Shown: in pieces, positions 1 to 62,913 of the stretch
How the letters are laid out: every line of letters begins with the position of its first letter
Position numbering within the stretch: position 1 is the stretch's first letter
Origin: Kofleriaceae bacterium
GTDB taxonomy: Bacteria > Myxococcota_A > Polyangia > Haliangiales > Haliangiaceae
DNA length: 64,000 nucleotides
Reading direction: 5' to 3'
NCBI GenBank assembly: GCA_018058095.1
Contig: JAGPCO010000004.1
Coordinates: forward strand, 62,001-126,000
Program-made: the position numbers and the translations under genes
Notes under the pieces: generated by a model
The model's database searches: none
What the model saw: the letters and a program-made list of their open reading frames with translations, nothing else
Told to the model about the DNA's origin: nothing

Positions 1-1
1 G

Positions 2-256
2 TTGTGGGAGGCGCTGGTGACCCCCTCCGACGACGCCTGGGCCGCGGGCCTCGACGTGCTGGCGGTGACGCCGCTGCCGGTCCGGGCCCTGACCACGGTC
101 GCGCCCCCGGGCACCGCCGCGCCCATCGCCGAGCTGGGGCTGACCCTGCAGCGCCAGGCGACCGCGGCCCGCACCGCCGGAGATGCGCCAGCGCGCGCAC
201 ATGCGTACGGCCAGATGCTCCTGACCTGCGCGCGCTGCCACCAGCTGGTGAAGTGA
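2..256 (+). CDS. C-terminal part of a haem-motif (CxxCH) protein, 5' truncated
   Basis: The reading frame is open from the left edge, so the true start lies outside the window and only about 84 residues are visible. Near the C-terminus is CARCH, a CxxCH motif of the kind that binds haem c covalently, six residues from the stop. The preceding part is helical and alanine-rich with no other recognisable domain. A haem motif this close to the C-terminus is typical of small periplasmic cytochrome-like proteins of Myxococcota. The stop codon is followed directly by the structured repeat at 257-375. Function is unknown beyond probable haem binding. Confidence 0.55.
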   Translation: MWEALVTPSDDAWAAGLDVLAVTPLPVRALTTVAPPGTAAPIAELGLTLQRQATAARTAGDAPARAHAYGQMLLTCARCHQLVK

Positions 257-375
257 CCCAGCAGGCCGCTGAAATACCCGTGCCGGCGGCTTCTGCCGAC
301 GGGACGGGCTCCGTGGTTTCAGCAGGCTGCGAGATCGAAAATGACCAGGAGGCTGCTTCTTCAGCAGCCTGCTAG
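257..375 (+). repeat. 119-bp structured dispersed repeat, copy 1
   Basis: This copy is about 75-80% identical to the reverse complement of 15471-15589. It contains a central inverted repeat (CCCGTGCCGGCGGC against GCCGACGGGACGGG) and ends in a hairpin, GGAGGCTGCT-TCTTC-AGCAGCCTgCTAG. The first base follows the stop codon of the upstream gene and the last four bases are CTAG. Compared with copy 2 the terminal stem changes in a compensated way (GGC/GCC against GGA/TCC), which supports selection on folded DNA or RNA. No coding potential is seen. It looks like a non-autonomous REP/MITE-type unit. Confidence 0.8.
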
Positions 376-12706: not shown

Positions 12707-14362
12707 ATGGACGTTTCGACCTTGAACCTCGAGCTGGCACCGGCGCCGTGTGTGGTGCTGGAGCGCGCGCGTAACCACCCCGAGCGGATCCGGTTCCGGG
12801 TCCGGCGCGGCGAGGCCTGGCACGACGTCAGCTGGGGCCGGTTCGCCGACGAGCTGCGCGCGTGTACGCGCTGGTTGATCGACCACGGCCTGGTCCCGGG
12901 CCAGGTCGCCGCGGTGTACGCCGCCAGCTCGGTCGAGTGGGCGGTGGCGGCGCTGGCCATCCAGGCCGCCGGTGGCGTGCTGGTGCCGGTGTACCCGGCG
13001 TCGACCGCCGAGCAGGCCGGCTACGTGCTCGAGCACGCCGATGCCCGCGTGGTGTTCGTGGCCGGGCGCGAGCAGCGCGCGCGCCTGGGCGAGCTGCGCG
13101 CGCGCCTGCCGGCGCTGGGCGCGGTGGTCGCCATGGACACCCGCGAGCCCGCGGCCGACGCCGTGAGCTGGGGCGAGGTGCTGGCCGCCGGCGCCGCCGA
13201 TCGGGCCACGCCGGCGCTGGTCGACCAGCGCCTGGCCGCGGTCGACCTCGACGCGCCCGGCTTCATGCTGTACACGAGCGGCACCTCGGGGCCGCCCAAG
13301 GGCGTGCCGCTGACCCACCGCAACGTCGGCGTCAACGCGCGCGATTGGCTGGTCAACAACAGCCCGGGCATCGAGGATGGCGACCGCGACCTGCTGTGGC
13401 TGCCCTTCTCGCACATCTTCGGCTTCGGCGAGCTGTGCCTTGGCAACACCCTGGGCTGGGTCAGCGCGCTGGTGTCACCGTCGGAGGTCATGCCGACCTT
13501 CGCCGAGGTGGCGCCGCACGTCTTCATGAGCGTGCCGGCGTACTGGGAGAAACTGGCGCGCGCGGTGCTGGCCGAGCCGGGCTGCGCCGGCGAGGCCGTC
13601 GGCGCCGCCGCGCCGCCGGCGCTGACCGCGGCCCGACGCGCCGCGCTGGCGCGCCTGACCGGCGGCAACCTGCGCTTCGGCCTGTCGGGCGGCGCCGGCC
13701 TCAAGGTCGAGATCAAGGAGCTGCTGCGCGACTGTGGCCTGGTCGTCATCGAGGGCTACGGCCTGACCGAGACCTCGCCGACCCTGACCATCAACCACCC
13801 GCACGACTACCGGTTCGACACCGTCGGCCGGCCGCTGCCGTCGGTCGAGCTGCGCCTGGCCGACGACGGCGAGATCCTGGCGCGTGGCCCCAGCGTGTTC
13901 GCCGGCTACCACAAGGACCCGGCCGCCACCGCCGCCGCCTTCACCGCCGACGGCTGGTTCAAGACCGGCGACATCGGCCGCTGGACCGAGGACGGCTTCC
14001 TGCAGATCGTCGACCGCAAGAAGGACATCCTGGTCACCGCCGGGGGCAAGAACGTGCCGCCGGCCAACATCGAGGCCCGCTTCACCGACGATCCGGTCAT
14101 CGAGCGGGTGGTGGTGTACGGCGACGCCCGGCCCTACCTGGTGGCGGCGATCTGGCCGGTCGACGGGGCCGAGCCGGCGGCGATCGCGGCCCGGGTCGCC
14201 GCGGTCAACGCCCAGCTCGCCTCGTTCGAGTCGATCAAGAAGTTCTGGGTCGCCGACGAGCCGCTGTCGGTCGAGGCCGGCCTGCTCACGTCGTCGCTCA
14301 AGCTCAAGCGCAAGGCGGTGTACGAGCGCTACCGGGTTCGCTTCGAGGAGCTGTACGCGTGA
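12707..14362 (+). CDS. AMP-forming acyl-CoA synthetase (long-chain fatty acid-CoA ligase type)
   Basis: A 551-residue ANL-family enzyme. Motifs in order: [16 protein letters not shown] (P-loop, about residues 188-203), [10 protein letters not shown] (about 348-357), [22 protein letters not shown] (about 415-436) and [11 protein letters not shown] with the hinge region. It has a GGAGG ribosome site 6 bases before ATG. It activates a carboxylic acid to the CoA thioester with ATP. The domain order fits FadD15-like ligases. In this operon it probably supplies hydroxyacyl-CoA or fatty acyl-CoA to the PHA pathway or recycles hydroxy acids released from the polymer. It overlaps phaC copy 2 by 4 bases. 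Confidence 0.88.
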
Positions 14363-15474
14363 GCGGCGCGCGTGACGGCAAGGCGAGCGGGCGCGGGCCG
14401 GTGGCCAGCCTGGCCGCGTTGTGGCGGCGCAGCCGGACTGGCCTGCCCGCCGTCGGCCAGACCCCGGCCGACGTGGTCTGGAGCGAGAACAAGTGGCGCC
14501 TCCTGCGCTACCGGGCCAGCGCGGCGCGCCGGTTCCGCACCCCGATCCTGCTGGTGCCGTCGCTGATCAACCGCTGGTACGTGCTCGACCTGCAGCCCGG
14601 GCGCAGCTTCGCCGAGTACCTGGTGGCGCAGGGCCACGACGTCTTCATCATCGACTGGGGCACGCCGAGCGCCGAGGACCGCTTCCTGACCTGGGACGAC
14701 GTGTGTGGCCGCTACCTCGGTCGGGCCGTGCGCCAGGCCGCGCGCCACGGCGCCGACGGCGTGGTCCACCTGCTCGGCTACTGCCTGGGCGGCACGCTCA
14801 CCACCGTGTACACCGCGGCGTTCCCGGCCGAGGTGGCGTCGATGGTGGCGCTGGCCGCGCCGATCGACTTCGCGCAGGCCGGCCTCATGGCGACCTGGAC
14901 CCGCGCGCCTGGCTTCGAGGTCGGCGCCCTCGTCGACGGTTTCGGCAACGTGCCATGGCCGCTCATGCAGGCCTCGTTCCACCTGCTGCGGCCGACCCAG
15001 AACGCGGCCAAGGCGGTCGCCATCCTCGACCGCGCCTGGGACGACGAGTTCCTCGACGGCCTGCTGGCGACCGAGCGCTGGGGCAACGACAACGTGTCGT
15101 TCCCGGGCGCGTGTTACCGGCAGTACATCGACGACCTGTACCGCGGCAACAAGCTGGTGGCCGGCACCATGAGCCTGCTCGGCCGGCCGGCCCGGCTGGA
15201 GGACGTCGACTGCCCGCTGCTGGTGGTCAGCTTCGGCCACGACCACATCGTGCCGGAGGCGTCGGCCACCGCGCTGCTCGGCGCGGTGTCCAGCCCCGAC
15301 CGCGCCCACCTGTCGCTCGGCGGCGGCCACGTCGGCGCCGTGGTGTCGCGCAAGGCGGCGACCGGGCTGTGGCCGCAGCTGTCGGCGTGGTGGGCCGCGC
15401 GCGACGACGACGCCAGCCGGGGCCTGGGCGACGCGGTGGTCGACGCCGTGGCGCCGGCCCCGCCGCCGGCCTAG
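14359..15474 (+). CDS. phaC: class III-type PHA synthase PhaC (second copy)
   Basis: A 371-residue protein from GTG 14359 (GTGA overlap with the ligase stop). GYCLGG holds the nucleophile C142; D295 (GHDHIVP) and H324 (GGGHVG) complete the triad. [17 protein letters not shown] and [11 protein letters not shown] are shared with the first copy. Sequence divergence from it suggests different substrate preference or timing rather than recent duplication. It is last in the plus-strand operon. Its stop codon TAG is part of the CTAG that opens the 119-bp repeat, so the terminal hairpin of the repeat may act as the mRNA 3' end. Confidence 0.9.
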
Positions 15475-15589
15475 CAGGATGCTGAAGAAGCATCCTGCTA
15501 GTCAGCTTCTGATCTCGCAGCCTGCTGAAAACACGGAGCCCGTCCCGTCGGCTGGAGCCGCCGGCACGGGTTGTTCAGCAGCCTGCTAG
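15471..15589 (-). repeat. 119-bp structured dispersed repeat, copy 2
   Basis: This is the inverted-orientation partner of 257-375. It opens with a perfect hairpin, CTAGCAGGATGCT-GAAGA-AGCATCCTGCTAG (15471-15501), contains the central CCGTGCCGGC/CCGACGGGACGG inverted repeat, and closes with GCCTGCTAG at 15581-15589. Both ends are CTAG. The first CTAG supplies the stop codon of phaC copy 2. Confidence 0.85.
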
Positions 15590-43367: not shown

Positions 43368-44093
43368 ATGGCACGACGGGTTCAGGCGGCGGTCGCGGCG
43401 ATCCGGGCCGCGCGCGGGCAGGCGCGGGCGGCGCGCTCGGCCGCGCGGGCCGCCGTGGCGGCCGCGACCCCACCGCGCCGGGTCCGCCGCAGCCCGGAGC
43501 AGGCGCGCGCGCTCATCCTCGCCGCCGCCCGCGCCGCCATCGGCGAGCACGGACCCGACAAGGTCGGGCTCAAGCAGGTCGCGGCCCGGGCCGGGGTCAG
43601 CCACGCGCTGGTGACCCACTACTACGGCAGCTACGACGCCCTGGTCGACGAGGTCATCTGGAGCGAGGTGCGCGCCTTCCGCGCCCACATCCTGGGGCGC
43701 CTGGCCGGCGCGACCACGCTGCCGCTGGCCGAGTGGGTCGGCGTGCTCGTCGCGCAGTACGCTGACCCGGCGCGCAGCCGCGTGCTCCTGTGGGCGATCA
43801 TGACCGGGCGCCTGACCGGGCCCGACGCGGTGCCGCGGCGCGAGCAGGGCCTGCGCCAGATCGCCGACGTGCTGGCGGCCCGCCTGCGCGTCGTGCGCGG
43901 CGACCAGGCGCCGGCCCGGGCCGAGCTCGAGGCGCTGCTGGTCGTGGCCATCAGCGCCGCGCTCGGCTACGCCGTCGCCGGCGAGGCGCTGTGGGGCGCG
44001 CTCGGCCACGACCGCGATGGTGGACGCGACGCCGCCTTTCGCGATGGGCTCAGCGCCCTGCTCGAGCGCACGCTGGCGACGCCGGGACGCTAG
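43368..44093 (+). CDS. TetR/AcrR-family transcriptional repressor
   Basis: A 241-residue regulator. A long Ala/Arg-rich N-terminal arm (about 40 residues) precedes the TetR DNA-binding domain, ALILAAARAAIGEHGPDKV followed by the helix-turn-helix LKQVAARAGVSHALVTHYYGSYDALVDEV (about 67-95). The C-terminal ligand domain is helical. It starts 10 bases from the tandem operators and so probably controls the Coq4-like gene and itself. The stop codon TAG is part of the CTAG at the left end of the adjacent mobile element. Confidence 0.88.
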   Translation: MARRVQAAVAAIRAARGQARAARSAARAAVAAATPPRRVRRSPEQARALILAAARAAIGEHGPDKVGLKQVAARAGVSHALVTHYYGSYDALVDEVIWSEVRAFRAHILGRLAGATTLPLAEWVGVLVAQYADPARSRVLLWAIMTGRLTGPDAVPRREQGLRQIADVLAARLRVVRGDQAPARAELEALLVVAISAALGYAVAGEALWGALGHDRDGGRDAAFRDGLSALLERTLATPGR

Positions 44094-44147
44094 CAGTCCG
44101 ACCCCGTAACGACTTCGGATCGCCCCGGGGTCGGCCTTCGGCCTCGC

Positions 44148-44434
44148 GCTGTGGACAGGCGCCCGGCGAAGCCGGGCGTACGGGCACGCCAGCCCCGATG
44201 GCGGCGCCTGCCCACAGCGGTCTCCCCGGGGCTGTCGTGGCTCCCCCAACCGGATTCTTTCGAATCCGTCCCTGACCCCCAGACACCCGGCGAATGCGGG
44301 TGTCTGGGTCACGGTCCAGGGTGGAAACACCCCTCAGGGTCCGCACGTCCAGGCCCGGGCGGACTGCTGTGGGCAGGCGCTGCCCCTCTCCGAGCCCGTC
44401 ACCACCCGTGCCAGGCCCTGCGCCTGTCCACAGC
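44148..44434. repeat. four REP-like 15-bp motifs in two inverted pairs
   Basis: GCTGTGG(A/G)CAGGCGC occurs at 44148-44162 (plus), 44204-44218 (minus), 44366-44380 (plus) and 44420-44434 (minus). The two inverted pairs, 41 and 39 bases apart, resemble BIME/REPIN arrangements that RAYT transposases act on. They lie in the otherwise empty 460 bases before the transposase gene. Confidence 0.75.
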
Positions 44435-44553
44435 AGGAGGCTTCAGCCGACGCCCGGGCCGGTCCACGCCCGGCGTCCCCGCCGTCCCGGAGAATCGTCG
44501 GACCTTCGACGAAATCCCTCGTCATCATCGTCGCGATGATATATACGCTCTAA

Positions 44554-45354
44554 ATGTCTTCGTCTGCCGCCGGCCCCCGCAGCGACCGTCGCCGCCGCGC
44601 CGTGCCAGCCGGGGCCCAGGTCAGCTTCGACGACCTCGTGCGCGGTATCACCACGCCACCGCGACGTCCGCGCCGGCGCCGGCGCGGACGGCCGCCCATG
44701 CAGCACCGCAACTCGGTCAAGCGCTGCGCCAGGCCTCGCTTCGCGAGGACCACCGTTCACCACGTCAGCCTGCGCACCGTCGACACCCTGCCCAGGTTGC
44801 GCACCCACGCCGGCCGCGAGGTGCTCGAACGCGCCCTCACCGGCGCGCGCGACCACACCCGCGTCACCGGCTTCCGCGTCCTGCACTACGCCCTCGAGGG
44901 CAACCACCTCCACCTCATCGTCGAGGCCGACGATGACACCGCGCTGTCGCGCGGCATGAAGGGGCTGGCGATCCGCCTCGCCCGCGGCTGGAACAAGGCC
45001 TTCGGCCGCCGTGGCCGGGTCTTCGCCGACCGCTACCACGCCCGCCCGGTCACCTCACCGACGCAGATGCGCAACACGCTGCGCTACGTGCTGTTCAACC
45101 ACGTGAGTCACTCCATCCGGGATTGGCAGGCGAATCGCGGCCAGCTACGCCAGCGCCTGCGCTTCTTCGAGCCCGACCGCTGGTCGTCCGGGCGATGGTT
45201 CGACAACGGACGTTCTCCGCCTCTGGGCGGAGCGCGGCCGGTGTCTGGGCCCACGACCTGGCTCGCGCGTGAGGGCTGGCTCCGCGCTGGCGGGCCGATC
45301 GACCCGGCCGAGCTACTGGACCGCCGCACTCCACGTCCTCCACGCGCGCGATGA
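44554..45354 (+). CDS. Y1 (IS200/REP-associated) tyrosine transposase
   Basis: A 266-residue protein. The first ~65 residues are basic and probably bind DNA (PRRPRRRRRGRPP). The Y1 domain (about 66-190) shows the HUH motif EGNHLHLIV (H118, H120), GRRGRVFADRYHARPV and the catalytic-type tyrosine Y178 in MRNTLRYVLFNHV. This spacing fits RAYT enzymes such as E. coli YafM, which cut single-stranded REP hairpins at a foot tetranucleotide. A C-terminal extension of ~75 residues is of unknown role. TATATA (44540-44545) ten bases before the ATG is the likely -10. Confidence 0.88.
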   Translation: MSSSAAGPRSDRRRRAVPAGAQVSFDDLVRGITTPPRRPRRRRRGRPPMQHRNSVKRCARPRFARTTVHHVSLRTVDTLPRLRTHAGREVLERALTGARDHTRVTGFRVLHYALEGNHLHLIVEADDDTALSRGMKGLAIRLARGWNKAFGRRGRVFADRYHARPVTSPTQMRNTLRYVLFNHVSHSIRDWQANRGQLRQRLRFFEPDRWSSGRWFDNGRSPPLGGARPVSGPTTWLAREGWLRAGGPIDPAELLDRRTPRPPRAR

Positions 45355-45451
45355 CGGTGCCCCGCCGCGATGAGGCCTGAGCGAGTCCGGCCATCGCGGC
45401 GCCCAGAATACGGGTCGGACTGCTAGCGGCCGGCGGGCGTCTTGAGGACGG

Positions 45452-61433: not shown

Positions 61434-61480
61434 CCGCTGAGACAGACCGCTGAGACAAGGTCCCCCGCTGAGACAAGGTC
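61434..61480. repeat. three direct repeats of CCGCTGAGACAAGGTC
   Basis: One partial unit (61434-61446) and two full units of CCGCTGAGACAAGGTC (61447-61462, 61465-61480) follow one another. They lie ~200 bases before the second Y1 transposase gene and 100 bases after the acidic lipoprotein start. The remaining DNA to 61677 is markedly G-rich on the plus strand, with a small GTCCGG-TGGG-CCGGAC hairpin, and holds no other gene I can see. Confidence 0.75.
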
Positions 61481-61677
61481 GTGACGACGTGATCAGGGGA
61501 TGGGTCGCGGAGTGGGGCGTTATGTAAACCGGCGAGATGGCTCGGGCCGCGTGTCCGGGAGTGGGCGAGGGGCGGACGGGGCGGACGAAAGAGTCCGGTG
61601 GGCCGGACAGGCGGGTTGGCAAGTGGCGGGAATGTGGCGAAAGGTTGGTTGGCGCGGGATGTGCTGCGGGTGGGGGT

Positions 61678-62697
61678 ATGGTGACGGAACGGCAGAAGGA
61701 GACGGGCAAGGGTGGGGCGGTGCGGCGGATCCGGTATTTGCCGCTGGAGACGACGATGCCGGAGGGTGGGCCGGGGGGGCTGGTGGAGGTGACGATCAGG
61801 ACGATCGCGGCGATGCTGCTGTGCCGGCCGTCGGAGCGGCTCAATCAGCGGATCTTGGGGGTGATGGGGCGGGCGCTGGCGCTGTACCCGGTGGCGCTGC
61901 ACGCCTTTGTCTTCATGTCGAACCACTGGCACGCGCTGCTGACGACGCCGGATGGCGAGACGCTGGCGCGGTTCGTTCAGCACGTGAACAGCAATGTCGC
62001 CAAGGCGATCAAGGAGGAGACGGGCTGGACGGGCAGGGTCTGGCAGCGGCGAGCGGCGAACATCGCGGTGCTCGACGACGACGCGGCGGAAGACCGGCTG
62101 CGCTACGTGCTGGCGCACGGGGTGAAGGAGGGGTTGGTCGAGCGGTCGGAGGACTGGCCGGGCGTGAACTGCGTGAGCGCGCTGCTCGGGCGCGAGCGGC
62201 TGGTGGGGCGGTGGGCGACGAAGAAGGGGCGCAAGCGGGTGGTGGAGACCTACTTCATCGACCTGGCGCCGCTGCCGGGCTGGCGCGTGCTGCGCGAGGA
62301 GCAGCGGCTGCACCGGGTCCGGCGCATGCTGGCCGGCATCCAGCGCGACGCGGCGGCGGCGCGGGGTGAGGCGCCGCCGCTCGGCCGGGCCGCGGTGCTG
62401 GCGCAGGATCCGCTCGACCGGCCGACGCGCAGCAAACACGGCGCGGCGCCGCCGTGTCACACGACGGAGCGCCACCGGCGCGACGCGTTCAAGGCCGGCC
62501 GCGAGCACCTGTGCGCGGCGTACGCGGCGGCGCGCGAGCGGCGATGGCGGCGCGAGCACGAGGTGCCCGGCTTCCCGGCTGGCTGCTTCCCCAGCCCGCC
62601 CCGCTTCGTCGCGCCGATCGACCCGGCGGTGGTCGCCGCCCGCCGCGCCCGCGTGCTGGCGGCGCACCAGCGGACGCGGTGGCAACCCATGGCCTGA
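61678..62697 (+). CDS. second Y1 (REP-associated) tyrosine transposase-like protein
   Basis: A 339-residue protein. The Y1 core has the HUH motif MSNHWHALL (H83, H85), helical RFVQHVNSNVAKAIK, GRVWQRR and the putative catalytic Y143 in DRLRYVLAHGVKEGLVERSEDWPGVN, close to the RAYT motif YI..NPV.AGLV. A C-terminal ~170-residue extension is Arg/Ala-rich and carries RFVAPIDPAVVAARRARV. The first half of the gene is strongly G-skewed on this strand, unlike neighbours. No terminal inverted repeats were found around it, so it may be a domesticated or fixed gene. Confidence 0.8.
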   Translation: MVTERQKETGKGGAVRRIRYLPLETTMPEGGPGGLVEVTIRTIAAMLLCRPSERLNQRILGVMGRALALYPVALHAFVFMSNHWHALLTTPDGETLARFVQHVNSNVAKAIKEETGWTGRVWQRRAANIAVLDDDAAEDRLRYVLAHGVKEGLVERSEDWPGVNCVSALLGRERLVGRWATKKGRKRVVETYFIDLAPLPGWRVLREEQRLHRVRRMLAGIQRDAAAARGEAPPLGRAAVLAQDPLDRPTRSKHGAAPPCHTTERHRRDAFKAGREHLCAAYAAARERRWRREHEVPGFPAGCFPSPPRFVAPIDPAVVAARRARVLAAHQRTRWQPMA

Positions 62698-62913
62698 ACG
62701 GGCGGCGACCGGTCCCCACACCCGGCCCACGCCGGTGCGAGCGCTGGCCGGCCCGCACTGCGCCCGCGCCGGCCCGAAGGCGCGCGGCCGGGCCGAGGTG
62801 TTCGGACCGAGACGCGCGGCCAGGCCGAGGTGTCGCGGTTTCGTGGCCCGGGCCGCCCACCTGTGGGCACAGATCCGCTCGACGGGCCCGGGCCGGGACG
62901 CTACAACCCGTCG

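Follow-up and report, generated by a model that had tools for sequence, protein, structure and literature searches.

What kind of element is a structured repeat of about 119 bp that occurs twice, in inverted orientation, within the window (the whole stretch of 64,000 nucleotides of Kofleriaceae DNA analysed here), and why do its copies lie directly at the ends of genes? The sequence comparisons described below make it very probable that the repeat is an IS5-family MITE that inserts at CTAG, often exactly on TAG stop codons. An earlier sequence-only reading had taken it for a non-autonomous family of a RAYT element found in the same window; the RAYT-linked REP assignment is corrected here to an IS5-type MITE, which is a kind of element that is already known.

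Two inverted copies at gene ends

The features of the two copies and of the adjoining genes are as follows.

1..256, + strand: 3' end of the open frame preceding copy 1 (288 open codons, TGA stop at 254-256)
258..375, + strand: putative MITE copy 1 including its 4-bp flanks (blastn to copy 2, 89% identity; CTAG-mapped ends)
262..274, + strand: left terminal inverted repeat (TIR) of copy 1, CAGGCCGCTGAAA, family consensus CAGGCTGCTGAAA (alignment)
345..375, + strand: hairpin at the right end of copy 1, containing the right TIR, which ends in TTCAGCAGCCTG followed by CTAG (alignment, folding)
14359..15474, + strand: phaC-like gene with its stop within CTAG (Pfam PhaC_N and Abhydrolase_1; gene calls)
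15471..15589, - strand: putative MITE copy 2, 119 bp, including CTAG (4 bp) on both sides
15471..15474, + strand: CTAG, probable target-site copy, holding the TAG stop (15472-15474) of the phaC-like gene
15586..15589, + strand: second CTAG, probable target-site duplication, on the far side of copy 2

The copies are about 89% identical and inverted relative to each other (blastn), and each carries the terminal hairpin and the larger inner hairpin that had been described from the sequence. Both have a lower folding energy than 200 of 200 dinucleotide shuffles on both strands (z -3.7 to -6.4). As the earlier reading held, copy 2 overlaps the stop of phaC, the TAG of the phaC-like gene lying inside its CTAG, and copy 1 follows a stop, starting one base past the TGA, with the C at 257 outside the copy. 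Its statement that both copies end in CTAG stands for copy 2, at both ends, and fails for the start of copy 1, a 118-bp element that is flanked by CCAG (a decayed CTAG) on the left and by CTAG on the right.

A CTAG-bounded family in one genome

A genome-wide search for further copies, which had been proposed together with the earlier reading, found about 90 in the 7.57-Mb genome (227 contigs), so the matches within the window are not due to chance, and the picture of a mobile-looking, non-autonomous family with many copies at gene 3' ends and stop codons is upheld. Copies were located by a core pattern, which misses strongly diverged ones, and 71 full-length copies were examined with the DNA around each. 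CTAG is present on both sides in 39 of the 71 and not in the remaining 32, most of which have it on one side, and GTAG (or CTAC at the right) occurs at an end of five copies only. The flanking four-mers deviate at 38 of 142 ends, whereas the first four bases of the TIR do so at 6 of 142 (p about 1e-7); this higher variability of the flank indicates that it is host target DNA and that CAGG is the start of the TIR. An abutting pair of copies in L097 has one CTAG common to both, and some copies adjoin other CTAG-bounded elements with a single CTAG in common. Two more CTAG-bounded repeat families, CTAGTCCCCTGGAAACG (about 111 bp) and CTAGAGCACCGAACGG (about 182 bp), abut 119-bp copies, and such further repeats lie at L096 3833-3943, L119 683-793, L127 4054-4235 and L141 4054-4236.

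In a search of 56 genomes, no copy was found in the 55 relatives, four of which contain only fragments of 22-39 bases. Similarly, the exact 28-nt core pattern has no match in the GTDB genomes, a collection that may omit the genome studied here, and the 119-bp family therefore looks restricted to this species or its lineage, in contrast to its widespread termini.

The termini are those of IS5-family elements

Each terminus of the repeat consists of CTAG followed by CAGGCTGCTGAA, that is, a 4-bp target and the TIR. At least 116 stretches contain the terminal 19-mer CTAGCAGGCTGCTGAAAAA, and their hosts span many phyla (Acidobacteria, Nitrospira, Planctomycetes, Chloroflexi, Alpha-, Gamma- and Deltaproteobacteria and others). 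In several of them, inverted ends that are identical to it or nearly so enclose a complete element 1.29-1.31 kb long that carries a single transposase gene; complete IS5_4 elements of this kind lie at L289 484-1790, L290 3294-4584 and L333 6529-7838. Elements with such ends come from Gemmatimonadales, Acidobacteria and one relative of the same order. Their transposases fall into the IS5 family (NF033581, transpos_IS5_4) with scores of 251-277 against a cut-off of 140, and match DDE_Tnp_1 and DUF772 in Pfam. In the same-order genome (L381), the near-identical ends CTAGCAGGCTGTTGA and TCAACAGCCTGCTAG enclose an IS5 gene within 1304 bp. In addition, such ends bound MITEs of 115-182 bp in several phyla.

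IS5 elements duplicate Py-T-A-Pu, and CTAG is the commonest target, accounting for 15 of 24 known ones (PMC5493358), which suggests that the flanking CTAG of the repeat is a target-site duplication. The repeat thus combines what characterizes an IS5 MITE, namely a terminus of 16-19 nt identical or nearly so to those of the L289, L290, L333 and L381 elements, a duplicated 4-bp Py-T-A-Pu target, and a multi-copy unit of 118-119 bp with no coding capacity. It shares the CTAG/Py-T-A-Pu target with IS5 of E. coli and the transpos_IS5_4 elements, and the CAGGCTGCTGAAAAA inverted-repeat ends with autonomous elements of the IS5_4 group, but it differs from IS5 elements in having no transposase gene, in being only 119 bp long and in having the ends alone in common with them. 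For the interior no match to anything known was found, and no Rfam family matched the window above its gathering score. A close parallel is MITEPsy1 of Pseudomonas syringae, an active IS5-type MITE of 100 nt derived from the IS5-like ISPsy2, which is likewise short, bounded by TIRs and devoid of genes, duplicates CTAG or YTAA and is mobilised in trans (PMC3189936). MITEPsy1 differs in its TIR (GGAAGGTCTGAAAAAGCC), in having six copies as opposed to about 90, and in that some of its copies are reported within genes.

Judging from the ends, the copies in this genome have almost certainly been moved by an IS5 transposase. The genome contains two decayed IS5 genes with CTAGCAGGnnGCTGA ends, one with both ends (L384 44-916) and one with one end seen (L386). 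No intact IS5 of the relevant group was found in the assembly (227 contigs, about 97% complete), and the mobilising copy may have been lost or may lie within an assembly gap.

The RAYT-like element of the window

The element to which the repeat had originally been assigned is the following.

44090..45426, + strand: RAYT-like (TIRYT) Y1 element with CTAG ends and 15-bp TIRs that include the CTAG

It has about 49 whole or partial matches in the genome, and the gene at 43368-44093 has its stop codon in the left CTAG of the element. GTAG REPs and REPINs with their RAYTs, as well as TIRtrons with TIRYTs, resemble the repeat in being palindromic, present in high copy number and located at 3' ends, with a tag that can give a TAG stop (PMC3733652, PMC6006769). 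The repeat could accordingly be read as a REPIN/REP-type sequence moved by this Y1 transposase, a CTAG-tagged analogue of the GTAG REPs, and the multi-copy nature of the Y1 element, its CTAG at both ends, its own contact with stop codons, the REPIN-like pair of hairpins in the repeat and the TAG stops that GTAG REPs supply to ORFs (PMC3733652) would all suit such a reading. However, the Y1 TIR CAGTCCGACCCC and the repeat TIR have only CTAG and CAG in common, and the Y1 element ends in CTAG[CG]AGTCCGACCCC, so that the matching termini expected of a REP and its RAYT are missing, while the whole 16-19-nt end of the repeat matches IS5 elements. Furthermore, GTAG REPs have a tag at one end and a Y1 transposase, whereas the repeat has no GTAG at its hairpin foot, ends in CTAG, and possesses TIRs with CTAG duplicated on both sides, a combination that suits a DDE element. 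At two loci (L034, L035) the Y1 element runs at its 3' end directly into remnants of the 119-bp repeat, and these fusions resemble deletions after adjacent insertion. Mobilization by the Y1 transposase is therefore highly improbable, and the repeat cannot be kept as a non-autonomous family of the RAYT element.

A second multi-copy Y1 element (about 61452-62707) was considered as a partner and rejected, as it has no matching ends; this unrelated Y1 transposase element lacks CTAG ends, and its copies on C190, C135, C99 and C210 are 94-95.5% identical. A simple inverted-repeat scan, which missed several elements of the own genome, found no consistent CTAG ends around the Y1 genes of relatives.

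Probable insertion at CTAG and placement on stop codons

Under the preferred IS5 MITE reading, an IS5-type DDE transposase (transpos_IS5_4) would recognise the TIR CAGGCTGCTGAA(AAA) and insert the element at CTAG (Py-T-A-Pu), duplicating the four bases and leaving CTAG at both ends. In a genome as rich in GC as this one, CTAG is rare, and much of what there is consists of a C followed by the TAG end of a reading frame, so that many insertions fall exactly on amber stops. Since both sides regain a CTAG, which reads the same on either strand, the gene keeps its stop, and two convergent genes can each retain theirs. Insertions within genes or promoters have probably been purged, presumably by purifying selection.

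Gene calls from a simple home-made codon-usage gene finder make the terminal TAG the stop of the neighbouring gene in 37 of the 71 full-length copies, and the genes stopping in this way include pgk, tpiA, lexA and the phaC-like gene. At L080 and at L093 a single copy provides the stops of both convergent genes; 4 of 69 copies lie between divergent genes, and none interrupts a gene, with two overlapping a gene end by 15 bases. The adjoining proteins that were examined are complete. In 13 element-free relatives from the genus, LexA ends at the same stop codon or one later, in several cases as CTC-TAG, and orthologues of Pgk and TpiA terminate a few codons from the same position.

How much of this placement follows from the target itself can be judged from an unbiased 463-kb sample with 106 CTAG sites, 71 of them free and non-coding. 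Stops make up 22 of these 71 (31%), compared to 52% of the copies (p=0.017), a difference that would be expected if the element actively targeted stops, through translation termination or 3' ends, and not merely CTAG; a comparable pattern across phyla points in the same direction. When divergent spacers are left aside, however, the values are 37 of 67 copies and 22 of 56 free sites (p=0.10), and this loss of significance suggests that CTAG availability together with purging explains most of the stop placement. As the purging of promoter and gene insertions can account for the remainder, active targeting of stops is very unlikely.

Related elements across phyla show a similar in-frame bias: the element's TAG closes a frame of 150 codons or more in 39 of 118 junctions, as against 5 and 13 for the two alternative frames (p=7e-10, judged by the longest frame). 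The idea that this IS5 subgroup generally uses amber stops as safe landing sites across bacterial phyla, with a transposase bias towards stops beyond CTAG availability, is tentative, and we consider it doubtful. If true, the rare palindromic CTAG would give entry at gene ends with the stop restored on both sides, serving convergent pairs as well. The landing on amber stops is unusually clean for a known kind of element; no specific report of IS5 elements inserting at CTAG and stop codons together was found in the open-access literature, and a comparable observation, in qualitative terms, has been made for GTAG REPs, whose tag gives neighbouring ORFs a TAG stop (PMC3733652). The family shows how a transposon that uses a rare 4-bp target can do almost no harm in a genome of high GC content, with about half of the full-length copies exactly on a TAG stop. 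This idea predicts annotation slips and 3'-UTR hairpins at such sites, and the similar frame bias of related elements in many phyla makes it widely testable.

At position 15459 of L206, two convergent genes use one CTAG as both stops with no element there, which is presumably the precursor state of the copies serving two genes.

RNA structure and covariation

The paired stem change between the two window copies (GGC/GCC against GGA/TCC) had been noted correctly, and it is confirmed at that pair across the family. In 65 aligned copies, 94.5% of the structure cells are paired, and only one pair out of 41 shows changes on both sides in a large number of copies, being A-U in 36, C-G in 26, G-U in one and unpaired in one of 64 distinct copies. 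This A-U/C-G pair divides the copies into two subfamilies, so covariation is not a general property of the stem. With one informative pair, covariation was rejected as a proof of RNA selection: the compensated change is weak evidence for a selected RNA structure, and fits palindrome-templated correction or a small number of events.

It is unlikely, though compatible with a MITE origin, that selection maintains the repeat as an RNA element whose hairpins stabilise or terminate mRNAs after the stop. The strong fold (z to -6.4), the largely paired structure with its both-sides change in 26 copies, and the location at 3' ends with few copies between divergent genes would agree with this, and E. 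coli REPs at most 15 nt from a stop affect translation according to work cited in PMC12306157. However, the single clear covarying pair marks a subfamily and may reflect very few events, hairpin-templated correction could yield the same change, the ends of the decayed IS5 copy carry terminal palindromes too, and the placement follows largely from CTAG availability. The earlier suggestion that the repeat shapes mRNA 3' ends describes a possible effect of its predicted hairpins.

Separate palindromes of 52-55 bp, bounded by CTAGCAGGnnGCTGA and in many cases located at stop codons (L213 10294-10345, L131 523-577), resemble ends of the genome's own decayed IS5 element, either paired or solo.
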